Assembly: GCF_001482285.1 (NCBI RefSeq)
Contig: NZ_LOEP01000037.1
Span: 1-64,000, forward strand
DNA: 64,000 bases
Direction of reading: 5' to 3'
Source: Haloferax sp. Q22
GTDB lineage: Archaea > Halobacteriota > Halobacteria > Halobacteriales > Haloferacaceae
In this document: piece after piece, positions 18,130-57,148 of the stretch
Numbering within the stretch: the first letter of the stretch is position 1
How the letters are laid out: each line of letters begins with the position of its first letter
The notes under the pieces: model-generated
What the model was told of the DNA's origin: nothing
The model's database searches: none
The model's input: only the letters and a program-made list of their open reading frames with translations
Program-made: the position numbers and the translations under genes

Positions 18130-18153
18130 GATTACACGGGTACAGATGTAATC
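18130..18153. repeat. Inverted repeat after the alpha/beta hydrolase gene
   Basis: GATTACA (18130-18136) and TGTAATC (18147-18153) form perfect 7-base arms around a 10-base spacer, 8 bases after the hydrolase stop and 124 bases before the membrane-protein start. With AT-rich arms and a one-helical-turn spacer it looks more like an operator than a terminator. Confidence 0.4.
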
Positions 18154-37317: not shown

Positions 37318-38109
37318 ATGTGCGATGGTGACGACCCGCAGGTAATGACCGAAAACGCGAACGACCGCTCGCTCAAAACGACGGTCACAACCCTCAGAAT
37401 CGTCGAATTACTCAGGGAACGCGACGGTGCCGGCGTGACCGAAATCGCCCGCGAACTCGACATCGCACCGAGCACCGCACACACCCACGTGACGACTCTC
37501 GAATCCCAGGAATACGTGGTTAAAGAGGGTGATACCTATCACCTCGGGCTTCGCTTTCTCGGTCTCGGGAACTTCGTCCGGACGCGAAAACGCCGTTTTG
37601 GGAAAGCCGAACACTACACCAACGTGCTCGCCGAAGAGTCCGAGCGGCGCTCCATCTTCACCGTCGAAGAGCACGGCCGAGGAGTGTACGTCCACACCTC
37701 ACCCGGAAAACACGGCGTCTGGACGCAGTCGACAGTGGGAAAGCGTGTCTACCTCCACTCGACGGCGAGCGGAAAGGCTATCCTCGCCCACATGCCGACA
37801 GAACGAGTCCACGAGATCGTCGAGCGAGTCGGCCTCCCGAAGGAGACGGAGCAGACGATTCACGACGAGGGGGCACTGTTCGACGAACTCGCCGAAATCA
37901 GAGAGCGCGGCTACGCACTGAACGTCGAAGAGCAGATTAGCGGCGTCCGCGCGGTCGGGGCCCCCGTGTTGGGACCTGACGGCGGCGTGTTCGGCGCGCT
38001 GAGCGTCGCCGGCCCCTCCAACCGGATGAAAGGCGAGCAGTTCGACCGTCTCACCGAAGTCCTCCTCGGCATCGCCGAGGAACTCGAACTGAGCATCGCG
38101 CTCTCCTGA
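37318..38109 (+). CDS. IclR-family regulator (amide-uptake locus)
   Basis: The protein is 263 residues from ATG 37318; ATG 37345 (MTENAN) is an alternative. An N-terminal winged helix ('TTVTTLRIVELLRERDGAGVTEIARELDIAPSTAHTHVTTLESQEYVVKEGDTYHLGLRFLGLG') is followed by an IclR effector domain ('SIFTVEEHGRGVYVHTS', 'LHSTASGKAILAHMP', 'GVRAVGAPVLGPDGGVFGALSVAGPSNRM'). It is one of three IclR proteins in the window. The recurring ATACTGTGCGTAT motif near its own promoter and those of the importer and creatininase makes it the prime candidate regulator. Confidence 0.9.
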   Translation: MCDGDDPQVMTENANDRSLKTTVTTLRIVELLRERDGAGVTEIARELDIAPSTAHTHVTTLESQEYVVKEGDTYHLGLRFLGLGNFVRTRKRRFGKAEHYTNVLAEESERRSIFTVEEHGRGVYVHTSPGKHGVWTQSTVGKRVYLHSTASGKAILAHMPTERVHEIVERVGLPKETEQTIHDEGALFDELAEIRERGYALNVEEQISGVRAVGAPVLGPDGGVFGALSVAGPSNRMKGEQFDRLTEVLLGIAEELELSIALS

Positions 38110-38245: not shown

Positions 38246-40195
38246 TTACGCCGGCGAGTAGCGCGGGTAGGAACTGTCGACGGCCTGCGCGTCCTCTTCG
38301 AGGAGGGCGACGGCGAGGAAGTCGGCGTAGTCCGCGAAGTAGTCCACGAGCCGCGAGATGCGGTTCGAGTCGATGGCCTCAAGTGAGTCGAGGACCATGA
38401 ACGGGACCGTCTCGTAGACGTCGTGGATGAGGTAGCCCGCGAGCGCGAACACGAGGCCGGTCACCTCGCGCTCGGACTCCGAGAGGTGGGCGACGGAGTC
38501 CTCGTAACTCACACCGTCTTCGTTCGTCCGGATGACGTGGAGGTCGAACACCGACTTCGTGACCTTCTTTCGGCCCTCCCGAACCCGCTTTTCGGTGCGT
38601 TCGATCCAGATGCGGTCGAGGTTGTCGTATTCGAGCACGTCGAGCACGTCGTCCATGTGGGTGTTGAACTCCTCGACGGCCTCGGATTCGAGGCGCTTGA
38701 TGCGCGTCCGAAGCTCCGCGAGTTCGTCTTCGATGTCCTCGCGGGCCGCTTCGAGTTCGTCGCGCTCGTCGAGTTTGCGCTCGATGTCCGCGATTTCGTC
38801 TTCGACGCCCTCGAGGTCGCTGCGGAGGCGGCCGAGGTCGTATTCGAGCTGGTTCGCCTCGCGGTGGAGGTCGAGCAGGTCGCCGTGTTCCTCGCTTTCG
38901 AGTTCGTCGACGGTCTGTTCGAGCGAGTCGATTTCGTCTTCGAGGTCCGAGCGGTCGGACTTGAGGTCCTCGATGCGCTCTTGGCGCGTCTCGCGCTCGC
39001 TTTCGATTTCGGACAGGCGGCGCTCGATGCGGTCGCGCTCGCGCTGGCGGCGCTCGTGGGTGGACTTCTCGTCTTCGAGTTCGGAGAGCTGTTCGCGGTG
39101 CGCGCGGTTGTCCTCGAGTTTCTCCTCGCGGAGCGTCCGGAGGCGTTCGAGCGTCCCTTCGATTTCGGACTTGTCGACCTCGGAGCCGCACGTCCAGCAG
39201 ACGACCTGGTCGTCGCCGAGCAGTTGGTCGGTGACGCTGCCGCCGGAGTCGTCGGCGTCGCGGAGCGCATCCACGACGTCAGAGGAGGTGCCAGAGAGCA
39301 TCTCCTCGTTGAACTGAATCACGGACTGAAGCTCGTTGACGGTCGACTGAATCTGCTGGCGGCGCGTCCGGAGGCGGCTGATTTCGGACTCGATTTCGTC
39401 GATTTTGCCGCCGGCGACCTCGGGGAGATCCTCGGCGTCGTCCTCCAGTTCGTCCTCCTCGGATTCGAGGGCGTCGAGGCTCTGTTTTTCCGTCTCGATG
39501 CGGCGGTCCACGTCGTTGATGTCGCGGCGCTTGCTCCGGAGGTCACCGAGTTTGGATTCGAGCTCGCTCTCGACTTCCTGTCGCTCGCTGACGCTGGCGT
39601 CGTACTCCTCGACTTCCTGTTCTTTCTCGGCGAGTTCGTCTTCCTTCTCCTCGATTTGGTCTTCGAGTTTCGTCCGCCGGCGTTCGAGCTGCGGCAGGCG
39701 GTCCGAGAGGTTGCTGAGCGTCGAGAGCTCGTCGGCGATGTCGCGTTTCTCCTGCTGGAGCGACTCGATCTGCTCGTTGATGGACTCGACGTCCACCGGA
39801 CGCATGATGAGGTCGCGGAGGTCGTCGCCGCGGGCGACCGCCTGTCGGGCGTCGTTCGTCTCGAGCAGGAACGCGAAGAGGTCCGCGAGGTCCGGGTCGT
39901 CGAGGACCGGATTCCCGCCGGAGATGACCGTGTCGCCCTGCCGCTCGAACGTCCGGGTGTACGTCTCGTCACCGATGGTGAGTTCGACCGACCCCTCGTC
40001 GGCGTCGCCCTTGAGCGCCACGTCGTCGCTCCCGTGGGCGGCCATGATGGACCGCAAAAGCGACGTTCGGTTCGTAGCGTTCCGTCCCGCCAGGACCGTC
40101 ACGCCCGGCTCGAACGACGTTGACAGGTTGTCGATGCCACCGATGTTCTCGACCGAAAGGTGGACTTTGGATTTTGACACTTGTTCTGAACTCAT
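38246..40195 (-). CDS. sph3: Archaeal SMC-related (Sph-type) coiled-coil ATPase
   Basis: The protein is about 649 residues. ATG 40195 (MSSEQVSKSKVHLSV) is preferred because it directly precedes the conserved first strand; a start 24 bases upstream is possible. The ATPase head has 'TVLAGRNATNRTSLLRSIMAAHG', a P-loop lacking the usual GK but typical of haloarchaeal SMC-related proteins. Long antiparallel coiled coils follow, then a Rad50-like hook CWTC in the middle. The C-terminal head has 'HLSESEREVTGLVFALAGYL' and Walker B 'VPFMVLDSLEAID'. The neighbouring rdfA-like gene identifies it as the Sph3 type that works with RdfA in rod-shape development of Haloferax. The symbol is inferred from synteny. 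Confidence 0.82.
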   Translation of the reverse strand: MSSEQVSKSKVHLSVENIGGIDNLSTSFEPGVTVLAGRNATNRTSLLRSIMAAHGSDDVALKGDADEGSVELTIGDETYTRTFERQGDTVISGGNPVLDDPDLADLFAFLLETNDARQAVARGDDLRDLIMRPVDVESINEQIESLQQEKRDIADELSTLSNLSDRLPQLERRRTKLEDQIEEKEDELAEKEQEVEEYDASVSERQEVESELESKLGDLRSKRRDINDVDRRIETEKQSLDALESEEDELEDDAEDLPEVAGGKIDEIESEISRLRTRRQQIQSTVNELQSVIQFNEEMLSGTSSDVVDALRDADDSGGSVTDQLLGDDQVVCWTCGSEVDKSEIEGTLERLRTLREEKLEDNRAHREQLSELEDEKSTHERRQRERDRIERRLSEIESERETRQERIEDLKSDRSDLEDEIDSLEQTVDELESEEHGDLLDLHREANQLEYDLGRLRSDLEGVEDEIADIERKLDERDELEAAREDIEDELAELRTRIKRLESEAVEEFNTHMDDVLDVLEYDNLDRIWIERTEKRVREGRKKVTKSVFDLHVIRTNEDGVSYEDSVAHLSESEREVTGLVFALAGYLIHDVYETVPFMVLDSLEAIDSNRISRLVDYFADYADFLAVALLEEDAQAVDSSYPRYSPA

Positions 40196-40273
40196 ACCTT
40201 GACCAAATAGGTACACCAATATAAAATCATCCGTTGAATCAAGGAGAATGTGACGGAACTAATTATGTAACGC

Positions 40274-40897
40274 CTAGTTCGACGCGTCCTCGTCGCAGTC
40301 GCACCCTCCCCGCCGGAGCAGTTCGACGACCTCGTACTGCGTCCCGCAGTCGCGGCAGTACACCTGCGTGTCCACGAGGACGTCGAAGTCGCCGAGCCGG
40401 AGCTTGCTCGTGTTACGGAGCGAGCTCAGGCTCTGTTCGATGACCGCGACCAGTCGGCCGCGGAGCCGCTGGATGGACTCGACGACGTTGTCGACTCTGT
40501 TCCCGGACGAGGACTCTTTCGAGACGCCGCGAATCTCCGTCAAATAGGTGTAGACCGCCTGGTGAGAGACGAAATCGGAGAGCAGTTGGTCGACATCGAC
40601 GCCGCGGGATTGGAGCGTGTTTTTCGCCTGAACGCGCATCCCCTCCGTGGTCTCGTCCCCGGTGAGGAGCGTGTACAGGTTCTCCACCTCACCTTCGAGA
40701 ACGTCCTCGCCCGCCTCGCGGAGCGCGGCGTCGAGCACCTTCTCGTTCATCAGGTCCGCGAGGTCACGGAGGCTGTCGCTGTCCTCAGGAGCCGTCCAGC
40801 GGTCGGCGAGCTGCTCGCCGAATCCGTCCAAGTCGTACGTTTCGATGACCCGTTCTACCTTGCTTAGGCGACGGTTCGTGCTTTGATCGGTACCCAT
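40274..40897 (-). CDS. rdfA: Rod-determining factor RdfA family protein
   Basis: The protein is 207 residues. The sequence 'KVERVIETYDLDGFGEQLADRW', 'SLRDLADLMNEKVLDAALREAG', 'GVDVDQLLSDFVSHQAVYTYLTEIRGVS' and a C-terminal zinc-type segment 'VYCRDCGTQYEVVELLRRGGCDCDE' are characteristic of the RdfA family. In Haloferax volcanii, RdfA is required for rod-shaped cells and is encoded beside an SMC-like protein. Here rdfA is first, with the SMC-like gene 78 bases downstream in the same direction, so an operon is likely. Confidence 0.82.
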   Translation of the reverse strand: MGTDQSTNRRLSKVERVIETYDLDGFGEQLADRWTAPEDSDSLRDLADLMNEKVLDAALREAGEDVLEGEVENLYTLLTGDETTEGMRVQAKNTLQSRGVDVDQLLSDFVSHQAVYTYLTEIRGVSKESSSGNRVDNVVESIQRLRGRLVAVIEQSLSSLRNTSKLRLGDFDVLVDTQVYCRDCGTQYEVVELLRRGGCDCDEDASN

Positions 40898-41728
40898 TAC
40901 CCGTGATTCACACGGTAACGTAAAATATCTTCAGGTTTGGAGAGCGATTCGTCACACTCGGCGAGGCGCGTTCGTCGGAACCGAACCGTTACTATCCGGC
41001 AATGTCGGATGATATGGAGTTCGGTAACTCACGCGGAGACCGAGTAGTAACGCGGAGCTGGAGTCGAGAACGCAGACGCTACGTAACAACGGGAGACGGC
41101 CGAAAAATGGAGCATCAATGGGACGTTGTGCTCGAGAGGTAGCCATCCCACGCGTTCATGAGTACCAGTTGGGCAGGCGTACTCGGTGGGGGCTACCGCG
41201 CGTACAGTATGACTGACGTACTGATGGCTATCGTGCTGGTCGCACGAGATGCTGATCACACATGGGTCAGATTGCTCCGACCATGTGCTACTACGAATCA
41301 CACCCATATAATAATTATGTACTTGGCAACCGTTGTGAGTAGCGTGTGAATCACGCCCGAAGCCGCCGGTTCGACGCCGATGCTCGAAGGAGACCAGGAG
41401 CCGCCGGGCATTGGCGACATTCCGCGACGCGGGTCGAGACGGCCCATCACGGGCGTCTCAGGAACCCCGGCTCCCGCCGTCGCGTCAGTTCGCGTCGGGT
41501 CTCCGGACCAACTGACTGCCGAGATACGACGCAAAATACGTCCGACGATGCCGGACGAGAATCGTTCGTCGTGAGCACCGATGCGAAACCGACGTATTGA
41601 ATCCTAGAGTATCGATTTCAGCCGTATCAGTGTCTTCGGACAGCAGTCGACGAAGTGGACGTATCGAAGCAAATAAACGGGACGCCGGCGGTGGTGGTGA
41701 AACGCCTCGAAGCCCGTCGAAAGAGGCG
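40898..41728. other. Long gene-free interval between rdfA and the rhamnose locus
   Basis: About 830 bases with no convincing gene; the frames are basic or neutral and match nothing I recognize. It contains a TCCG-N7-CGGA palindrome (TCCGGCAATGTCGGA, 40995-41009), about 100 bases upstream of rdfA. It also has repeated ACGCGGAG units near 41031 and 41050, and an AT-rich patch near 41307-41325. It may be an old insertion scar or a large control region. Confidence 0.45.
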
Positions 41729-42526
41729 CTAGTGCTTGAGGTAGCCGCCGTCGACAGCGATGGACTCGCCGGTTATCCAGTCGCCCTCCTCGGAGAGCAG
41801 GAGGACCGCGACGTGACCGACTTCCTCGGGTTGACCGATTCGGTCGAGGATGTGCACGTCGAGCGTCTCCGCGAGGATTTCGTCCGGCGACTTGCCCGAC
41901 TGCTCGGCGTGTTCGTCGAGCCACGCCTCGACCATCGGCGTCTCGACGGTGCCGGGCTTGAGCGCGTTGACGGTGATGCCGTGGTCGCTCAGTTCCTTCG
42001 CCAGCACGGTCGTGAAGGCGAGAACGGCCGCCTTGGACGCGCCGTACGCACCCTGTCCGGCGAACGGTCGCTCCGCGCCGACCGACGAGATGTTGACGAT
42101 GCTCCCCTCGATTTCGCGGTCGACCATCCGGGCGGCGACGGCCTTGGAGACGAGGAACGTCCCCTTGGCGTTCACTTCGAAGTGGAGATCCCAGTCGTCT
42201 TCGGTCGTTTCGAGAAGCGGGATAGCCTGCTGAACGCCCGCGTTGTTCACGAGGCCGTGGATGTCGCCGAGCGACTCGACCGCGGCGTCAACGGCGGTTT
42301 CGACGCCCTCGGCGTCGGTCACGTCGACCTCGTACACCTCGGCCTCGCCGCCCTCCTCGCGAACGAGTTCGGCCGTCTCCGCGGCCACCTCGGGCTTCGT
42401 GTCGAAAATCGATACGTCAGCTCCGGCGCGGGCGCAGCGGACCGCAATGCCGCGGCCGATGCCGCGCGCACCGCCGGTGACGACGATATGCCTGTCTCTC
42501 AGTCGGGTGTCTGTGTGCGTGCTCAT
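41729..42526 (-). CDS. SDR dehydrogenase, probable sugar-acid (2-keto-3-deoxy-L-rhamnonate) or rhamnose dehydrogenase
   Basis: The protein is 265 residues with classical SDR motifs: 'TGGARGIGRGIA', 'NNAGVQQAIPLLETT', Ser in 'VNISSVGA', 'YGASKAAV' and a C-terminal 'GESIAVDGGYLKH'. The residue after strand 2 is Asp (IFDTK), favouring NAD+. In the known diketo-hydrolase route, SDRs catalyse the oxidation of L-rhamnose and of 2-keto-3-deoxy-L-rhamnonate. Its position next to the FAH-family hydrolase gene favours the second role. A TATAAATAA element about 25 bases upstream of the ATG fits a leaderless promoter. Confidence 0.82.
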   Translation of the reverse strand: MSTHTDTRLRDRHIVVTGGARGIGRGIAVRCARAGADVSIFDTKPEVAAETAELVREEGGEAEVYEVDVTDAEGVETAVDAAVESLGDIHGLVNNAGVQQAIPLLETTEDDWDLHFEVNAKGTFLVSKAVAARMVDREIEGSIVNISSVGAERPFAGQGAYGASKAAVLAFTTVLAKELSDHGITVNALKPGTVETPMVEAWLDEHAEQSGKSPDEILAETLDVHILDRIGQPEEVGHVAVLLLSEEGDWITGESIAVDGGYLKH

Positions 42527-42577
42527 AGTCGGTAGTACCGGGATATCGTATAAATAATTGCGCTGTACGCCGGCCGG

Positions 42578-43429
42578 TTACTCGTCGCGCTCGGCGACGA
42601 CGGGGTTGGTGAGCGTGCCGATGCCCTCGATTTCCACGTCGACGCTGTCGCCCGGCACGAGCAGTTCCGGCGGGTCGCGGAAGATGCCGACACCGCCGGG
42701 CGTGCCGGTGGAGATAACGTCACCGGGTCGGAGTGTCGTGATGTTACTGATGTACTCGACGACCTCGTCGACGCCGAAGATGAACTCGGAGGTGTTGGAC
42801 TCCTGTTTCGTCTCGCCGTTGACGCGGCAGGCGACGTCGAGGTTGTGCGGGTCGAGGTCGCCCTGGGGGACGAACGTCGGCCCCATCGGGGCGAACGTGT
42901 CGTAGCTCTTGCCGCGGAAGAACTGGCCGTCGTCGAACTGGGCGTCGCGGCCGCTCACGTCGTTGATGGCCGTGTAGCCCGCGACGTAGTCGAAGGCGTC
43001 CTCGGCGTCGACGTTCTTGGCCGTCTGGCCGATGACGACGCCGAGTTCGACCTCGTAGTCGACCTCGTCGATGGCCGACGGGTGGACGATGGGGTCGCCG
43101 GGGTTCGTGACGGACGTGCCGGCCTTCCCGAACAGGAGCGGACGTTCGGGCACCTCTTCATCCTGTTCTTCGGCGTGGTCGTGGTAGTTGAGTCCGACGC
43201 AGACGATTTTTCCGGGGCGCGGCACGGGCGCGAGGAGCTTCACGTCCTCGACGGGGACCGACTGGTCCTCGGCGGCGTCTGCGGCGTCCTCGACGACGGT
43301 GAGGAAGCCGGGGCTGTTCAGGTTCTGGACGGTGACGTCTTCGCGGAGGCCGGAGAGCGGGACGACGTCGTCGTCGCGGCGGACGCCCCATTCGGGGGCA
43401 CCGCCCGCGGTGTATCGAACGAGTTGCAT
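42578..43429 (-). CDS. FAH-family hydrolase, probable diketo-deoxy-rhamnonate hydrolase
   Basis: The protein is 283 residues from ATG 43429 (MQLVRYTAGG); upstream in-frame codons lack similarity. The fumarylacetoacetase core is intact: 'IVCVGLNYHDHAEE', metal pair in 'EVDYEVELGVVIGQTA', 'GYTAINDVSGRDAQF', 'DTFAPMGPTFVPQGDL' and 'RPGDVISTGTPGGVG'. In the diketo-hydrolase L-rhamnose pathway, a FAH-family enzyme splits 2,4-diketo-3-deoxy-L-rhamnonate into pyruvate and L-lactate. Other FAH enzymes (oxaloacetate decarboxylase, acylpyruvase) are possible, but the neighbours make this role best. Confidence 0.85.
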   Translation of the reverse strand: MQLVRYTAGGAPEWGVRRDDDVVPLSGLREDVTVQNLNSPGFLTVVEDAADAAEDQSVPVEDVKLLAPVPRPGKIVCVGLNYHDHAEEQDEEVPERPLLFGKAGTSVTNPGDPIVHPSAIDEVDYEVELGVVIGQTAKNVDAEDAFDYVAGYTAINDVSGRDAQFDDGQFFRGKSYDTFAPMGPTFVPQGDLDPHNLDVACRVNGETKQESNTSEFIFGVDEVVEYISNITTLRPGDVISTGTPGGVGIFRDPPELLVPGDSVDVEIEGIGTLTNPVVAERDE

Positions 43430-43513
43430 CGTTACACTCTGCCACACCGTGATACGTAACTGTTGCGCTCTACGCAGCATTGCGACGGTCGAGGTGGGTC
43501 CGCGGTCCGCCGA

Positions 43514-44272
43514 CTACGAGTACGTCAGGTTCACTTCGATGACGTTCGCGCTCTTGAGAATCTGGTTCGGCAGTTCCTCGGTAAAGCGCTCCTCGCGCAT
43601 CCGGCTTTTCGGCCCCGAGACGCTCACGGCGGCGATGGCGTAGTCGTCCTCGTTGAGTATCGGCGCGGCCACACAGCGCATGCCCTTGACGCGCTCTTCG
43701 TCGTCGTACGAGTAGCCGCGCTCGCGGACCTGCTCCAACACGTCGAACAGTTCCTCGCGGTCCGTGATAGAGCGGTCCGTCACCGCCTCTAACCCGTGGC
43801 GGTCGAGGATTCGCTCGACTTCCTCCCGCGGCCGGTTCGCCATGATTGACTTCCCGAGGGCCGTCGTCTGCAGCGGGACACGCATCCCCGAGTGGGTGTC
43901 CAGCCGGACGGCGTCGGGGCCCCGCGACCGGTACAGGAAGACGCCGACGCCGTGTTCCTCTATCATCAGGTTCGCGTGCTCGCCGGTCACCTGCGCGAGC
44001 TCGTTTATCTCGGGACGCGCGATTTTGAACACCTTCTGGCGAGACCGCGCGTGAGCGCCTAACTGGAGGAACCGCGTGCTGACGTAGTAGGTGTCGCCCT
44101 CCTTGACGAGGTACTCCTGTTGCTCCAGCGTCCGCAGATGGTCGTGAATCGTGCTGGTCGGCTTGTCCAGTTGCTTGGCTACCTCCGAGACGCCCGCCCC
44201 GTCGAGCTCCCGCAGGAGATCGACGAGTTCGAGCGAGATTTTGACCGCGTTGACCGGAACGTCCTTCGCCAT
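43514..44272 (-). CDS. IclR-family regulator (rhamnose locus)
   Basis: The protein is 252 residues. The winged helix ('NAVKISLELVDLLRELDGAGVSEVAKQLDKPTSTIHDHLRTLEQQEYLVKEGDTYYVSTRFLQLG') is followed by the effector domain ('HANLMIEEHGVGVFLYRSRGPDAVRLDTHSGMRVPLQTTALGKSIMANRP', 'GMRCVAAPILNEDDYAIAAVSVSGP'). A TCCG-N7-CGGA palindrome lies 35 bases before its start codon, suggesting autoregulation and control of surrounding genes. It is placed centrally in the rhamnose genes, transcribed in the same direction. Confidence 0.9.
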   Translation of the reverse strand: MAKDVPVNAVKISLELVDLLRELDGAGVSEVAKQLDKPTSTIHDHLRTLEQQEYLVKEGDTYYVSTRFLQLGAHARSRQKVFKIARPEINELAQVTGEHANLMIEEHGVGVFLYRSRGPDAVRLDTHSGMRVPLQTTALGKSIMANRPREEVERILDRHGLEAVTDRSITDREELFDVLEQVRERGYSYDDEERVKGMRCVAAPILNEDDYAIAAVSVSGPKSRMREERFTEELPNQILKSANVIEVNLTYS

Positions 44273-44304
44273 AGTTGGTTATGAATCCTCATCCCTCAAA
44301 TGTC

Positions 44305-44323
44305 TTTCCGCTATGGCCGGAAA
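44305..44323. promoter_or_regulatory. Palindrome upstream of the rhamnose-locus IclR gene
   Basis: TTTCCG-ctatggc-CGGAAA has perfect 6-base arms around 7 bases, a shape resembling IclR-family operators. Its core is one of seven TCCG-N7-CGGA sites seen in non-coding DNA of the window. Confidence 0.55.
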
Positions 44324-44484
44324 TGAGGAGGTGTTACGAGCGATGAACTCCGTGTGGGAAATTTAAATAATCTAGATAATTCAGATATTGTGGCTATTCA
44401 GGTAGACGAATGACGCGAAGATAGCAAGAAAGAAAGCGAGTACCCGAGGCGACCGAGCGCGGCGCGCTCGACCCGTGGGACGTC

Positions 44485-45513
44485 TCAGTTAAACTGCGGG
44501 ATGACTTCGTCCGCGAACAGTTCCATGCCGTCGGTGTCGGGGAAGTCGATGAACCAGCCCTGGAACTTCGTCACGCCCGCGTCGATGCGGCGCTCGATAG
44601 CTTCCGCGCACTCCTCGGGCGTCCCCATGATGAAGTACTCGCGGGCGTCTTCCTCCGTCACGATGGGCGCTTGGTCCTGGTACTCCGCTTCGAACTGGAT
44701 GGGCGTCATCAGGTCGAGCAGGCGGTCGAACTTCTCCTCGTCGCGCGTGCAGATGACGTGGCCGTCCCACGAGTACTCGATTTCGTCGGGGTCGCGGCCG
44801 ACGGTCTCGCAGTGGTCTTCGATGACGCCGATTTTGTGTTCGAGCGTCTCCACGTCGCCGTTGAACACGTCGGTGTTCCACACGTCGGCGTGTTTGGCGA
44901 CGAGTTTGAGCGTGACCTCCTCGCCCTGTCCGCCGACGAGGATGGGCGGATGGGGGTCCTGTACGGGACCGGGGACGCAGTAGGCGTCCTCGATTTGGTA
45001 GTGCTTGCCGTCGAAGCTCGCGCCGTCGCTGCCGGCAGCCCACATGCGCTTCATGAGGCGGATGGACTCGTCGAGGCGCATCAGGCGCTCGAAACCGTCG
45101 CGGTACTCCCAGCCGTAGGCGTCGTACTCCGGCTCGTGCCAGCCCGCGCCGAGGCCGAGTTCCAGCCGCCCGTCGGAAATCACGTCGAGCGTGGCCGCCA
45201 TCTTGGCGACGAGCGCCGGGTTGCGGTAGTCGTTACAGAGGACGAGCGAGCCGAGGTTGATGTCCTCGGTGAAACCAGCGATGGCCGACAGCAGCGTCCA
45301 GCACTCGTACTCGGCGTGGTCGCGGCCCAACAGCAGGTGGTCGGGTGCCCACACCGCGTCGAAGCCGAGTTCCTCCGCCTTTTGGACGCCCATCTTGGTC
45401 GTCTCCCAGTCGAGCGACTCGTACTGCGGCGTGTCGCGGTGCGTCGGCTCGGTCCCCTCGTCGGGCGCGCCGGCGAAGACGGGGACGTTGTACTCGAAAC
45501 TGATGTCAGACAT
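44485..45513 (-). CDS. LLM-class flavin/F420-dependent oxidoreductase
   Basis: The protein is 342 residues from ATG 45513 (MSDISFEYNVPVF); the longer in-frame sequence overlaps the dehydratase gene. The LLM barrel shows 'GFDAVWAPDHLLLGRDHAEYECWTLLSAIAGFTEDINLGSLVLCNDYRNPALVAKMAATLDVISDGRLELGLGAGWHEPE' and 'PVQDPHPPILVGGQG'. It is related to the LLM gene at 26369. No LLM step is known in the rhamnose pathway, so it may oxidize a side product or a methylated or modified sugar. It starts 2 bases after the dehydratase stop, so it is surely in that operon. Confidence 0.86.
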   Translation of the reverse strand: MSDISFEYNVPVFAGAPDEGTEPTHRDTPQYESLDWETTKMGVQKAEELGFDAVWAPDHLLLGRDHAEYECWTLLSAIAGFTEDINLGSLVLCNDYRNPALVAKMAATLDVISDGRLELGLGAGWHEPEYDAYGWEYRDGFERLMRLDESIRLMKRMWAAGSDGASFDGKHYQIEDAYCVPGPVQDPHPPILVGGQGEEVTLKLVAKHADVWNTDVFNGDVETLEHKIGVIEDHCETVGRDPDEIEYSWDGHVICTRDEEKFDRLLDLMTPIQFEAEYQDQAPIVTEEDAREYFIMGTPEECAEAIERRIDAGVTKFQGWFIDFPDTDGMELFADEVIPQFN

Positions 45514-45515
45514 CG

Positions 45516-46721
45516 TTACTCGATGGCGAAGTGTTCGAGCGCCTCGCGGTTCAGTTGGGTGCTGACACCGGGTTCGTCGGGGAGCGGGATCGACCCGTTC
45601 TCCGGCGACGGCGGGTTCTGGAAGATGGCGTCGGCGTAGGTCGACTCGCGTTTCTCCTGGCGCTCCTCGAACCACTCGGGGGTCGGGAAGTACTCCGCCA
45701 TCGGCATGTTCGTGTGGCCGGCGATGGCGTGGAGCGTCGGGTTCGTTCCGGCGTGCGGGATGACGGGAACGTCGTGGACTTCGGCCATGTCGGCGACCTT
45801 CTGGAGTTCCGTGATACCGCCGACGCGACCCACGTCGGGCTGGAGGATGTCGACCGCACCTTCTTCGAGGAGGTCCTCGTGGCCCCAGCGGGTGAACTCG
45901 TGTTCGCCGCCCGAAATCGGCATCGGCGCGGCCTCGCGGACCTCGGCGTAGCCGGAGATGTCGTCGGCGATGACCGGCTCCTCGACCCACGCCATGTCGT
46001 ACTTGCCGAGGCGCTGGGTCATCTCCTTGGCGTACTTGACCGACCAGCCCATGTAGGCGTCGCCCGCGATTTCGATGTCGTCGCCGACGGCGTCGCGGAC
46101 CGTCGCGACGATTTCCTCGTTCTTCTTCATGCCCGCGCGGCCGTCCTCGGGGCCGTGGAGGAAGCGGAGTTTCATCGCGTCGAAGCCCTCCTCGACGTAC
46201 TGGATGGCCTCGCGCTCGAGTTTCTCCATGTCGACGGGGTGGAGGTTCGACGCGTAGGCGGGAATCTCGTCTTTAGTGGGGCCGCCGAGCAGTTCGTACA
46301 CCGGCTTGCCGGCGTCCTTCCCGGCGATGTCCCACAGCGCCTGGTCGACCGCGCTGATGGCCATGACCGCGACGCCCTTCCGGCCGAACGGGAGCGTAGC
46401 GCGGTACATCTGTTCCCAGAGGAGTTCGCGCTGCATCGGGTTCTCGCCGACCACGATTTTCGAGAGCGTCTCCTCGACGACGGTGGCGATGGCACCCGTG
46501 CCCCAGTTACCGACGCCGACGCCGGTGATGCCGGCGTCCGTCTCGACCTCGACGACCACGTCACCCACGGGGCCCATCCACTTGCGGCGGGCCTGCGGGT
46601 TCTCCCCGTCGACGTTGCGGTACTCGTCGTACTTCGACATGATGGTGACGAGCGGGAATTCGATGAACTCGCCCCACGACTCGTTGCTGATTTTCGTCGC
46701 TGAGATGTCTGTAATCTCCAT
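45516..46721 (-). CDS. Enolase-superfamily acid-sugar dehydratase, probable L-rhamnonate dehydratase
   Basis: The protein is 401 residues. Metal ligands are Asp221 ('AGDAYMGWSV'), Glu247 ('WVEEPV') and Glu273 ('SGGEHEF'), with catalytic His323 ('VIPHAGTNP'), the mandelate-racemase-type set. Blocks 'LHGPEDGRAGMKKNEEIV', 'DILQPDVGRVGGITEL' and the C-terminal 'NGSIPLPDEPGVSTQLNREAL' align well with bacterial L-rhamnonate dehydratase. It would convert L-rhamnonate to 2-keto-3-deoxy-L-rhamnonate. Other deoxy-sugar acids (L-fuconate) remain possible. It is first in a pair with the LLM gene. Confidence 0.86.
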   Translation of the reverse strand: MEITDISATKISNESWGEFIEFPLVTIMSKYDEYRNVDGENPQARRKWMGPVGDVVVEVETDAGITGVGVGNWGTGAIATVVEETLSKIVVGENPMQRELLWEQMYRATLPFGRKGVAVMAISAVDQALWDIAGKDAGKPVYELLGGPTKDEIPAYASNLHPVDMEKLEREAIQYVEEGFDAMKLRFLHGPEDGRAGMKKNEEIVATVRDAVGDDIEIAGDAYMGWSVKYAKEMTQRLGKYDMAWVEEPVIADDISGYAEVREAAPMPISGGEHEFTRWGHEDLLEEGAVDILQPDVGRVGGITELQKVADMAEVHDVPVIPHAGTNPTLHAIAGHTNMPMAEYFPTPEWFEERQEKRESTYADAIFQNPPSPENGSIPLPDEPGVSTQLNREALEHFAIE

Positions 46722-46905
46722 GATTTGTTTGGTACGACCTCACATCCAATCGGCACGGGTAAAATAGTTTCTGTCGTTGAGCGACCGGTGGCCCGGAGAG
46801 GTCGCTGTTTCGTCGGTCGGCCCCGCCGTCAGTCGGTCAAAGAAGCCTCGAATCGGTCGGTGATGAGACGGCGACGCCTCGGTGGGGAGCTTCTTTCGCG
46901 TCGTT

Positions 46906-47940
46906 TCAGCCGTCGAACTGGAAGACCGGCTTGCAGGTCTCGGAGTCGAGGAAGGCCTCGAACGCCTCGGCCGGCTCATCGACGCTGTAGGAGGTGTCGA
47001 GAATCTTGTCGACCGCGATCTCGCCGCGCTCCATCAGGCGGAGCGCCTGCTCGAAGTTGGTCCACGTCGAGCCGTAGGAGGTGTTGATGTCGATTTCACC
47101 GCGGACAGTCGAGGTGAGGCTGAGTTCGCTCGGCGAGTTCGGGATGCCGACGACGACGATTTGGCCGCCCTTGCGGACCACGTCGTTCCCGGAGACAACG
47201 CCGCTGTGGTGGCCCGTCGCGTCGAAGACCACGTCGAAGCCGATGCCGTCGGTCTGGCTCTCGACCCGCTCGTCGAGGCCGCCTTCCTCCTGGAGGTTCA
47301 CCGTGTCGATGCCGAGGTCTTCGAGTAGCGGGAGGCGATACGCCGCGTCCTGTCCGAGGCCGGAGACGACGACGTTCGCGCCGAGGGAGTCGGCGACGGC
47401 GGCGACGAGCATGCCGATGGGGCCCGGCCCTTCGACGAGGACGTTGTCGCCGGGCGTCGTCACCGACTGGTCGAGGACCGCGCGCGTGGCGATGCTCGTT
47501 GGCTCGGTGATGGCGGCGTGCCGGAGGGGAACGCCCTCGGGCACCGCGTGGACGTGTTCGGGCGTGACGGTGACGTACTCCGTGTACGCGCCGTCGCGGT
47601 GCATGCCCGTAATAGAGAAGTTCTGGCAGACGTTGGGCTGGCCGTTCTGACACTGGAAGCAGTGGCCGCAGTCGTGAATCGGCTCCTCGACGACCTTGTC
47701 GCCGACCTCGAACGTCTCGACGTTCTCGCCGACTTCCGTGACCGTCCCGGAGTACTCGTGGCCCATGATGCGCGGGATGGGAATCCACTCGTAGCCGCCG
47801 TCGTACTTGTAGGCGTGGGCGTCGCTACCACAGAGACCCGCGGTGTGGACCTTGATGAGCAGTTCGTCTGCACTGGGAGTGGGAACCTCCCGCTCTTGTG
47901 TCTCTACCGAGCGCGGCCCGGTCTGAATAATGGCTTTCAT
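46906..47940 (-). CDS. Zinc-dependent alcohol/polyol dehydrogenase
   Basis: The protein is 344 residues from ATG 47940 (MKAIIQTGPRSVE). It is a medium-chain dehydrogenase: catalytic zinc site 'GLCGSDAH' and 'GHEYSG', structural zinc set 'CGHCFQCQNGQPNVC', and a nucleotide domain with 'EGPGPIGMLVAAVADSLGANVVV'. It is similar to threonine/sorbitol dehydrogenases. In this locus it may oxidize L-rhamnose, L-fucose or a related sugar, or handle lactaldehyde. It is a single gene with its own promoter carrying an imperfect palindrome. Confidence 0.87.
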   Translation of the reverse strand: MKAIIQTGPRSVETQEREVPTPSADELLIKVHTAGLCGSDAHAYKYDGGYEWIPIPRIMGHEYSGTVTEVGENVETFEVGDKVVEEPIHDCGHCFQCQNGQPNVCQNFSITGMHRDGAYTEYVTVTPEHVHAVPEGVPLRHAAITEPTSIATRAVLDQSVTTPGDNVLVEGPGPIGMLVAAVADSLGANVVVSGLGQDAAYRLPLLEDLGIDTVNLQEEGGLDERVESQTDGIGFDVVFDATGHHSGVVSGNDVVRKGGQIVVVGIPNSPSELSLTSTVRGEIDINTSYGSTWTNFEQALRLMERGEIAVDKILDTSYSVDEPAEAFEAFLDSETCKPVFQFDG

Positions 47941-47969
47941 AGTTGCAAATGACCGTGTGGGATCGTCTC

Positions 47970-47986
47970 GTTTACACCATGTGAAC
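47970..47986. promoter_or_regulatory. Imperfect palindrome upstream of the zinc dehydrogenase
   Basis: GTTtACAccATGTgAAC keeps seven of eight arm pairs. It lies between an ATATTAAT element (47993-48000) and the dehydrogenase start, a place where a repressor could act. Confidence 0.35.
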
Positions 47987-48123
47987 ACACCGATTAATAT
48001 GTTTGGGTGCGGGCGGAGAATTTCGGCCGTAGCGCGGCTGCAGCCGCGGCTACACCGGGCAAGCTGTTGGCTATATCCGGCGACATGCCTTGTGTCCGCC
48101 ATCACGAACAGTAAGACGACGGC

Positions 48124-48993
48124 TCACCCGAGGTCGACGTGCCGCCGGAACGACTTCCCGGTCAGCCACGACCGGTCGGCCGTCGACAGCGAGTCGACCT
48201 GTTTGAGCCAGTTGCACGCCTCCGCGTAGCTGGCAACGTCGCTGACGTTCGGGTAGTCGGAGCCCCAGACGACCCGCTCGCGACCGAAGGTGTCGAGGAG
48301 CCACCGGACGTGGTCGTGCATGTCGGCGTAGGGGAACGCCGAGTCGGACATGTGGACGATTTCCGAGACCTTCACCGCGACCGAGTCGTGTTCCGCGAGG
48401 TCGGCGAACCGGCTGAACGTGCCCTCGTCGGTGGGCGTCTCCGGGCCCGCGTGGGCGAAGTGGTCGAACAGGTAGGTGAGTTCGGGATACGACTCGACGA
48501 GTTCGAGCGCCTGGTCGAGCTGGCCGTGGTCGCAGAGAATCTGAACCGTGGCGTCGTGTTCGACCGCGACCTCCCAAAAGGCGGTCTCCTCGACGCTCTC
48601 TCGGAGCCACGTCACGCTCGGGTCGAACGTCTCCCACATCCGGTCGTACGGGCAGGCCGCGCCGAGTCGGAAGCCGAAGACGCCGTCGGTCTCCATGCAG
48701 CGGTCGAGGCGGTCGACGGCGTCGTCGGCGAACGGGTCGAGCATCACGATGCCGTGGAGTCGGTCGTACTCCGCGGCGACCCGTCGGGTGTACCAGTTGT
48801 CCGTCCAGTCGCAGATAGGGTAGCCCACGACGACGGCCTCGTCAACGCCGTTTCGGTCCATGTCGGCGAGCAGGCGTTCGGCGGTGTAGACGGTGTGTAC
48901 GTCGAAACTGTCCACGAGGTCCAAGATGGGGCCGTTGGTCCACGGGTGTTCCGGACTCGCCGCACCCCACGCGTGGGTATGAGTATCTATCAT
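48124..48993 (-). CDS. Amidohydrolase-family lactonase, probable sugar-acid lactonase
   Basis: The protein is 289 residues with a TIM-barrel amidohydrolase of the COG3618/PF04909 type: 'MIDTHTHAWG' (HxH metal motif), 'FGFRLGAACPYDRMW', 'YLFDHFAHAGPE' and 'RVVWGSDYPNVSD' with the catalytic Asp. The group includes L-rhamnono- and L-fucono-lactonases, which open the lactone made by sugar dehydrogenases. It is divergent from the mutarotase gene, sharing a 79-base promoter region. Alternative: a decarboxylase of the same fold. Confidence 0.84.
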   Translation of the reverse strand: MIDTHTHAWGAASPEHPWTNGPILDLVDSFDVHTVYTAERLLADMDRNGVDEAVVVGYPICDWTDNWYTRRVAAEYDRLHGIVMLDPFADDAVDRLDRCMETDGVFGFRLGAACPYDRMWETFDPSVTWLRESVEETAFWEVAVEHDATVQILCDHGQLDQALELVESYPELTYLFDHFAHAGPETPTDEGTFSRFADLAEHDSVAVKVSEIVHMSDSAFPYADMHDHVRWLLDTFGRERVVWGSDYPNVSDVASYAEACNWLKQVDSLSTADRSWLTGKSFRRHVDLG

Positions 48994-49072
48994 TACAATC
49001 GACGACGGGCGTTCCCGTACTAAATCTTACCCGCCGAAAAGCTAAGACGGGTGCCATCGAATCGGAGGCCGT

Positions 49073-49375
49073 ATGGCGCGAATCGCGTTCCACCTAGAGA
49101 TTAAAGACGGCAAGCGAGAGGAGTACCGAACGAAACACGAGAACGTCCCCGAGGCGCTCGAATCCGCCTATCTGGACTCTGACGCCGGCCTTCAGACGTA
49201 CAGCGTCTTCGAGAAGGACGGCCACGTCTTCGGCTTCATGGAAGTCGACGACCCGGAAGCCATCCAGGAAGTAATGGACAACAGCGAGGCGCAAGCCGAC
49301 TGGGCGGAGGTCATGAGCGGCATCACCGTCGAGACCGACGACAGTTGGATGGACGAAGTCTACCGGATGGTCTGA
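49073..49375 (+). CDS. rhaM: L-rhamnose mutarotase
   Basis: The protein is 100 residues, the usual length of RhaM/RhaU. The sequence 'FHLEIKDGKREEYRTKHENVPEALESAYLDSDAGLQTYSVFEKDGHVFGFMEVDDPEA' and the C-terminal 'WMDEVYRMV' match the family, with the catalytic His in 'KHENV' and the Tyr and Trp of the sugar pocket. It interconverts alpha and beta L-rhamnose. GGAGG 5 bases before the ATG (49064-49068) is a good ribosome site. It is the clearest evidence that the locus handles L-rhamnose. Confidence 0.88.
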   Translation: MARIAFHLEIKDGKREEYRTKHENVPEALESAYLDSDAGLQTYSVFEKDGHVFGFMEVDDPEAIQEVMDNSEAQADWAEVMSGITVETDDSWMDEVYRMV

Positions 49376-49916
49376 CGTTCGAGGGCGAAGAATATCCGGC
49401 CATGGCGGAGGATCCGCCATCCACAACGAATTTCTCACCGAGAATACTGCTGGACGAATTACCCCAATCTCGCAGTTACCGCGAGGTAGCGGCGCACAAA
49501 TAGCCGCATCTCGGCGAAATCGTTCACTCCGGTCCATCCGGATACTCATCCGCCACTGGCGGAAACCCGGTACGGCCCGAGTCGACCGTCGAGGGTCACC
49601 CGCTAACAGAGTAGTACGACGACTCGATGTACGCGATTGCCGTCTAAGCGGGTTGTACGGCCCCAACCATTACATCCATAAACTTGTAATTTAAAATTGT
49701 TTCTACGCGGAGTGCCACGGATATATCTCGGAGCGCAGCTTCGACCGGCCGGACTGAACGACCACCGCGGGAGAGGGCAATGAAAAACACGGTACTGTTC
49801 CATTTAGGCCTCTACGCGCCGTATCCAGTCGATTCAGTTCTGGAACCGGTGTCAGAAGACCGTCCGGCCATGCCGGATGCCTTTCCGGCGTGAGCGACTG
49901 GTCGACCGACTGCGGT
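49376..49916. promoter_or_regulatory. Convergent gene-free interval holding four TCCG-N7-CGGA palindromes
   Basis: No convincing gene is seen in 541 bases between two converging genes. Palindromes occur at 49395-49409 (TCCGGCCATGGCGGA), 49528-49542 (TCCGGTCCATCCGGA), 49549-49563 (TCCGCCACTGGCGGA) and 49863-49877 (TCCGGCCATGCCGGA). A further inverted repeat ATGGCGG/CCGCCAT spans 49402-49420. An AT-rich stretch near 49675-49700 could be a promoter for an unrecognized RNA. Convergent gaps are usually short, so this one is odd. Confidence 0.55.
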
Positions 49917-52370: not shown

Positions 52371-53144
52371 ATGAGCCCCCAACCGAACAAACGCCCCGGC
52401 CGAACAATCCGCTCGGTCCAGATAGCGTTCAATATCATCGACCTCCTGCAGGAGGAGGCGGGCATCGGGGTGACGCGAATCGCCGACGAGCTCGGCCACT
52501 CGAAGAGCACGGTCCACAGCCACCTCCGAACGCTCGAAGAGCGGCGCGTCATCGTCCGCGAGGGCGACGGCTACCGTCTCGGTCTGCGCTTCCTCGACGT
52601 CGCCTCACACGTCCGCGACCAGATAGGCAACTTCGACATCGTCCAAAAGGAGGTCGACTCGCTGGCCGAGGAGACGGGCGAAATCGTCCAGTTCGGCGTC
52701 GAGGAGTACGGGATGGTCTCGTACCTCCACAAGGCGCAGGGCGAACACGCCGTCGAGACGCTGTCGAGGGTGGGAACCCAACAGCCGATGTACTCCACGT
52801 CGCTCGGCAAGACGATTCTCGCGTACCTCCCTCCCGAGCGCATCGAGGAAATCGCGGCGGCGATGGAGTACGAACCCAAGACGTCGAACACCATCACCGG
52901 ACCCGAAGAGCTGTTCGAGGAACTCGAGACCATCCGCGAGCAAGGGTACGGCATCGACGACGAGGAGAACATCAACGGCCTGCGCTGCGTCTCCGCACCG
53001 GTCAAGAACGACGAGACAATCCTCGGCGCGATCAGCATCACCGGCCCGTCGAGCCGGTTTACCGAGGACCGCCTGCACGGCGAACTCGCGGACTACGTCC
53101 GGAGCGCCGCGAACGTCATCGAACTGAACACGAAGTTCTCCTGA
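52371..53144 (+). CDS. IclR-family regulator (uronate half of the locus)
   Basis: The protein is 257 residues from ATG 52371; in-frame upstream codons precede the promoter and are rejected. Winged helix 'RSVQIAFNIIDLLQEEAGIGVTRIADELGHSKSTVHSHLRTLEERRVIVREGDGYRLGLRFLDVASHVRD', then effector domain 'EIVQFGVEEYGMVSYLHKAQGEHAVETLSRVGTQQPMYSTSLGKTILAYLPPERI' and 'GLRCVSAPVKNDETILGAISITGP'. It is divergent from the GH105 gene. The palindrome abutting its TATA box suggests autoregulation. Confidence 0.9.
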   Translation: MSPQPNKRPGRTIRSVQIAFNIIDLLQEEAGIGVTRIADELGHSKSTVHSHLRTLEERRVIVREGDGYRLGLRFLDVASHVRDQIGNFDIVQKEVDSLAEETGEIVQFGVEEYGMVSYLHKAQGEHAVETLSRVGTQQPMYSTSLGKTILAYLPPERIEEIAAAMEYEPKTSNTITGPEELFEELETIREQGYGIDDEENINGLRCVSAPVKNDETILGAISITGPSSRFTEDRLHGELADYVRSAANVIELNTKFS

Positions 53145-56912: not shown

Positions 56913-57148
56913 GTTCCCGAGGCGGGAAAATTACAGGCATATGTTTGTAATGTATCGGCGGCTATAGCGCCGAATTCGCGCATTCACCGTGTGGGACGCA
57001 CAGCCGACCAATACCTCAAACCACCTAAACACCATCATAAGCCCACTTAGAGCCTCAAACACCCGAGTTCGCCACCGGGGAACGTGAAACCCATCCAGAG
57101 TGAAGGATTGGGCACAATTCGCCGAATGTTCGTTCCCCACCGGCGAAC
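56913..57148. promoter_or_regulatory. Three GTTCsCC-N3-GGsGAAC sites in a gene-free interval
   Basis: The gap 56801-57444 shows no gene but holds 17-base sites GTTCCCGAGGCGGGAAA (56913-56929), GTTCGCCACCGGGGAAC (57067-57083) and GTTCCCCACCGGCGAAC (57132-57148). The last two are 65 bases apart and read nearly as inverted copies of each other. The nearest start is the esterase at 56800, about 113 bases from the first site. Confidence 0.55.

Follow-up and report, generated by a model that had tools for sequence, protein, structure and literature searches.

Predicted operators of the IclR-family regulator RhcR around the L-rhamnose catabolic cluster of Haloferax sp. Q22, with a conserved array in a convergent intergenic gap

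The window, a 64,000-nt stretch of the genome of Haloferax sp. Q22, contains eight exact copies of the 15-bp palindrome TCCG-N7-CGGA, seven of which surround the L-rhamnose (rhc) cluster (Table 1). Sequence comparison across haloarchaea indicates that these repeated palindromes are almost certainly operators of RhcR, the haloarchaeal regulator of L-rhamnose breakdown, an IclR-family protein predicted to be encoded within the cluster. We hold with high confidence that the seven sites are recognized by the product of gene 43514-44272 and, the output of the gap array aside, operate in the manner proposed below. RhcR, together with XacR, GacR, and MscR, is listed among the haloarchaeal IclR regulators of sugar catabolism in PMC11519228. 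An operator sequence for RhcR was not found in the literature examined, and an earlier description of the motif is possible. With a defined operator assigned by comparison to one archaeal IclR clade, the RhcR regulon becomes testable.

Table 1. Predicted regulatory sites and associated genes in the window.
Feature	Position	Strand	Remarks
Gap site 1, predicted RhcR operator	49395-49409		20 bp past rhaM stop codon; arms 8/8 invariant in 8 genomes
Gap site 2, predicted RhcR operator	49528-49542		Arms invariant, inner bases 2/7 invariant; 133 bp from site 1 in 8/8 genomes
Gap site 3, predicted RhcR operator	49549-49563		Arms invariant, inner bases 1/7 invariant; 21 bp (two helical turns) from site 2 in 8/8 genomes
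Gap site 4, predicted RhcR operator	49863-49877		Arms invariant; 313-315 bp from site 3 in 8/8 genomes
Second palindrome ATTAC-N12-GTAAT, putative regulator site	49669-49690		Arms 10/10 invariant in 8 genomes; N12-specific
Conserved block GAATTTmTCA	49427-49439		Sole other conserved block of the gap; possible core promoter role
Predicted RhcR operator at rhcR promoter	44307-44321		35 bp before start codon; position shared by orthologues in many genera
Predicted RhcR operator near rdfA	40995-41009		98 bp before rdfA; kept in relatives
Predicted RhcR operator	41541-41555		174 bp past SDR stop codon; kept in relatives
IclR-family regulator, RhcR orthologue, probable binder	43514-44272	-	Neighbourhood, tree
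L-rhamnose catabolic (rhc) cluster	41729-49375		Haloarcula homologue annotation, Pfam

The number of palindromes in the window does not differ significantly from that expected by composition, with eight observed versus 6.1 ± 2.4 in dinucleotide shuffles, and the argument of the first-pass annotation that base composition could hardly explain the copies is not supported for their number. Genome-wide, the pattern occurs 133 times, versus 75 for the reversed pattern. Placement is a different matter: as that annotation had noted for its seven copies, every site in the window is intergenic and none is coding, although only 16.7% of the window is intergenic and 83% is coding (p ~6e-7). The seven coordinates given earlier all proved exact, but the list was incomplete, an eighth site at 41541 (TCCGACGATGCCGGA) having been overlooked. 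The 3.98-Mb genome has exactly three copies of the core TCCGGCVATGNCGGA, each of them within 40995-49877, and the only one-mismatch copies with intact arms in the whole genome are those at 41541 and 44307. Beyond the window, the comparison of coding and intergenic DNA covered the fetched loci and the first 15 matches elsewhere in the genome, 11 of them coding and 4 intergenic. In the loci of the RhcR clade, TCCG-N7-CGGA reaches 6.07 copies per 10 kb in intergenic DNA versus 0.27 in coding DNA, so the operator proposal withstood this density comparison, as it did in the window.

The copy at 1621-1635 stands apart. It does not share the core, carrying the off-profile sequence CCTACAG between its arms; it lies 42 bp 3' of the stop codon of a nikR-like gene, and it is kept only in near-identical relatives. 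Because of its inner sequence and its narrow conservation, this copy was rejected as a member of the RhcR set, and it is probably unrelated to the regulator. The site also sits within a strong predicted hairpin.

The cluster comprises SDR, rhcF, rhcR, LLM oxidoreductase, rhcD, rhcE, and rhcC genes on the minus strand, and rhaM on the plus strand. The Haloarcula homologues are annotated as rhcC, rhcD, rhcE, rhcF, and L-rhamnose mutarotase, with consistent Pfam assignments. Judged by this neighbourhood, gene 43514-44272 is the RhcR orthologue.

The idea that the palindromes are IclR operators, and those of this gene in particular, is strongly supported by comparison, as the promoter site follows the IclR tree. 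The comparison drew on 80 haloarchaeal loci encoding IclR relatives, with genes in the fetched loci called by a simple caller. The same 15-mer was located directly upstream of the start codons of RhcR orthologues in many genera (Haloferax, Halogeometricum, Haloarcula, Natrialba, Halegenticoccus, Halocatena, Halosimplex, Natrinema, and others), abutting BRE/TATA and usually leaving 33-38 bp between its 3' edge and the IclR start codon. In a maximum-likelihood tree, the promoter site was found in 33 of the 40 members of one clade (support 99/99), in 19 of 19 members of the RhcR subclade, and in 0 of 43 proteins outside the 40-member clade; it is thus present at orthologue promoters and absent from those of paralogues, some of the counts being inflated by near-identical species. 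On this tree, the presence of the promoter site requires 5 changes versus 26 in shuffles. Among the RhcR neighbourhoods of the clade, it is absent for three proteins (L097, L098, and L100).

The loci of the RhcR clade also define the motif itself. The N7 spacing alone is enriched, in intergenic DNA only, where 120 copies occur, and the operator profile over its 15 bp is TCCG-R-Y-A-W-T-R-Y-CGGA. In the loci of other IclR proteins, density is 0.83 per 10 kb.

Other local proteins were considered as binders, given that the window holds two further IclR genes (37318-38109 and 52371-53144) as well as rdfA and SMC-related genes, to which the palindromes could be linked as centromere-like sites; rdfA/SMC pairs do occur near some RhcR-type loci. 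We regard this reading as very unlikely, since both additional IclR proteins fall outside the site-bearing clade and their promoters lack the site, and most site-bearing loci of the RhcR clade contain no rdfA/SMC genes within the fetched 20 kb.

Conservation within the genus was evaluated in eight genomes, namely Q22 and syntenic stretches from seven congeneric genomes; the close relatives are named Haloferax species. The seven sites round the rhc cluster are kept in all seven relatives. Flanking genes are mostly ~92-96% identical, whereas the gap at 49376-49916 (541 bp), toward which rhaM (+) and a GFO/IDH/MocA oxidoreductase gene (-) converge, drops to ~55% between two clades. Within this gap, the arm columns of the four operators are invariant (32/32), versus 135/459 columns in the rest (~5e-23 if columns are independent), while the inner bases of sites 2 and 3 drift. 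The spacing of the four gap sites is held in all genomes, unlike that of the two sites close to rdfA, which are 476 to 577 bp apart. In our reading of the alignment, this conservation of arms and spacing is the trace of binding sites and not of a decaying repeat.

The same observations bear on two further explanations. The remains of a small dispersed repeat, raised by the first-pass annotation and in keeping with several copies within a short stretch, can practically be dismissed. Only the arms are conserved, and they have been constrained far longer than their surroundings; inner bases are not kept, flanks are unrelated, the core is confined to one 9-kb stretch and absent elsewhere in the genome, and the distribution of sites follows the regulator tree in other genera. 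The palindromes might also act as RNA hairpins, such as terminators or 3'-end stabilizers, as those at 1621, 49395, and 49863 are foldable and lie 20-42 bp past stop codons. This is highly improbable, because inspection of the eight-genome alignment revealed identical arms without covariation and freely varying inner bases, and many sites occupy promoters, where one of them keeps a constant distance upstream of TATA.

In the gap, the operators are accompanied by the second palindrome, ATTAC-N12-GTAAT, often in the fuller form ATTACA-N3-RTAY-N3-TGTAAT. Its spacing is specific: the 1.84 Mb of fetched sequence yielded 43 copies at N12 versus 0-1 for other spacings, and this genome has 10 versus 0 for the control. 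Haloferax genomes carry 6-20 copies each, in many cases next to IclR genes in sugar clusters, and the palindrome accompanies RhcR sites in other genera. It points to a further regulator associated with sugar loci throughout the genus. A TrmB-family gene next to one copy was considered as the source of the binder and was not supported, since no more than 4 of 9 close orthologues have the motif nearby. Copies in the window are located at 18131-18152, 49669-49690, and 56930-56951.

Regarding the mode of action, one RhcR dimer would occupy each 15-bp site through contacts with the TCCG/CGGA arms, and the pair at 49528/49549 would fit an RhcR tetramer bound to a single helical face. IclR tetramers typically use tandem sites separated by 18-22 nt (PMC8222616); the window holds this one pair only, and another is present in locus L091 (20 bp). 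Wider spacings across genera revealed no clear helical-phasing rule by eye. At rhcR-type promoters, the operator is followed at ~5 bp by an A/T (TATA-like) run and at ~35 bp by the start codon, so that it abuts the BRE of what is probably a leaderless promoter. From this position, RhcR probably represses its own gene by competing with TFB; a negative semi-palindrome has been reported at the xacR promoter (PMC6085418). Other promoters of other genera have their closest site some 60-125 bp ahead of the start codon, a placement that fits activation, and RhcR bound upstream would probably activate these catabolic targets. Activation is the mode reported for haloarchaeal IclR sugar regulators, including RhcR (PMC11519228). 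Because a predicted operator precedes rdfA in Haloferax, this gene may also belong to the RhcR regulon.

The four-site array and the second palindrome would together serve the rhc cluster as a compound control region. These conserved regulator sites lie in a convergent gap, where no promoter is annotated and which annotation and most motif scans would pass over. In the rhcC/rhaM divergent promoter, an RhcR palindrome was not found even when one arm mismatch was allowed, and the idea of a weak site there was accordingly rejected; the gap array must therefore either work distally or have another target. Its most likely action would be leftward on rhcC, from 400-880 bp upstream of that gene, across rhaM, an output that, judged by position, we place just short of an even chance. 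The divergent promoter itself (48994-49072) displays long invariant runs in the eight genomes.

Operators in convergent gaps were also identified across several genera, in loci L095, L148, L097, L098, L093, L135, and L101, several of these arrays being accompanied by the ATTAC palindrome. In L095 and L148 the array follows rhaM, the first spacing in L095 again being 133, and in L097 and L098 it is located between rhcC and rhcE. With approximate gene boundaries from the simple caller, operator density per 10 kb is 9.4 in convergent, 5.9 in divergent, and 4.8 in tandem gaps. This recurrence, together with the conserved AT-rich block beside gap site 1, possibly a core promoter element on either strand, favours another role for the array, as the control region of an unannotated transcript with its promoter inside 49376-49916. 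Such a transcript would be either a small RNA or a long leader that reads through rhaM in antisense and on into rhcC. In Haloarcula, moreover, the module precedes an SDR gene that converges with rhaM, and it may therefore once have driven a gene in the Haloferax gap. No Rfam match above threshold was obtained, however, no conserved small ORF was found in the gap in the eight-genome alignment, and no TATA-like element keeps a constant distance to the sites across the two clades. We consider a hidden transcript a realistic prospect, although somewhat less than an even one; it concerns the role of the array and not the identity of its sites. One small ORF (49780-49893, 37 codons, after an SD-like run) was rejected because its start codon is lost in relatives; the frame itself is partly kept in close relatives.

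More generally, we tentatively suggest that RhcR and a second regulator may share conserved compound regions in convergent gaps of several genera, which could either start unannotated RNAs or act distally on the rhc promoters in an enhancer-like manner. If true, this would represent an archaeal enhancer-like arrangement in which spacing is fixed while sequence drifts.

The predicted operator resembles known elements in part. The consensus of bacterial IclR group 1 operators is GKTYCRYW3-4RYGRAMC (PMC8222616), and the Haloferax sites likewise are short palindromes with TYCR/YGRA-type arms, located near their own regulator gene and in some cases arranged as tandem pairs about two turns apart. 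They do not match this consensus, as N7 separates the arms, giving 15 bp with a spacer about two bases longer, and the outer GK/MC is missing; they also differ in being located at archaeal promoters and in arrays within convergent gaps. Haloarchaeal promoters such as sptA and xacR contain semi-palindromic cis-elements of positive or negative action, and a distant enhancer has been reported for sptA (PMC6085418). Like those elements, the palindromes described here adjoin BRE/TATA or WW; they differ in sequence, and a conserved multi-site array in a convergent gap does not feature in PMC6085418.

Gene content around the cluster varies among relatives. Relatives L068, L070, L071, and L072 carry an ABC sugar transporter of ~5 kb between rhcE and rhcC, which is absent here (47941-48123) and from H. 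gibbonsii and H. prahovense. The rdfA and SMC-related gene pair (38246-40897) adjoins the rhc cluster here and likewise in Haloarcula litorea (L170), and it is also present near RhcR-type IclR genes in loci L135 and L152.
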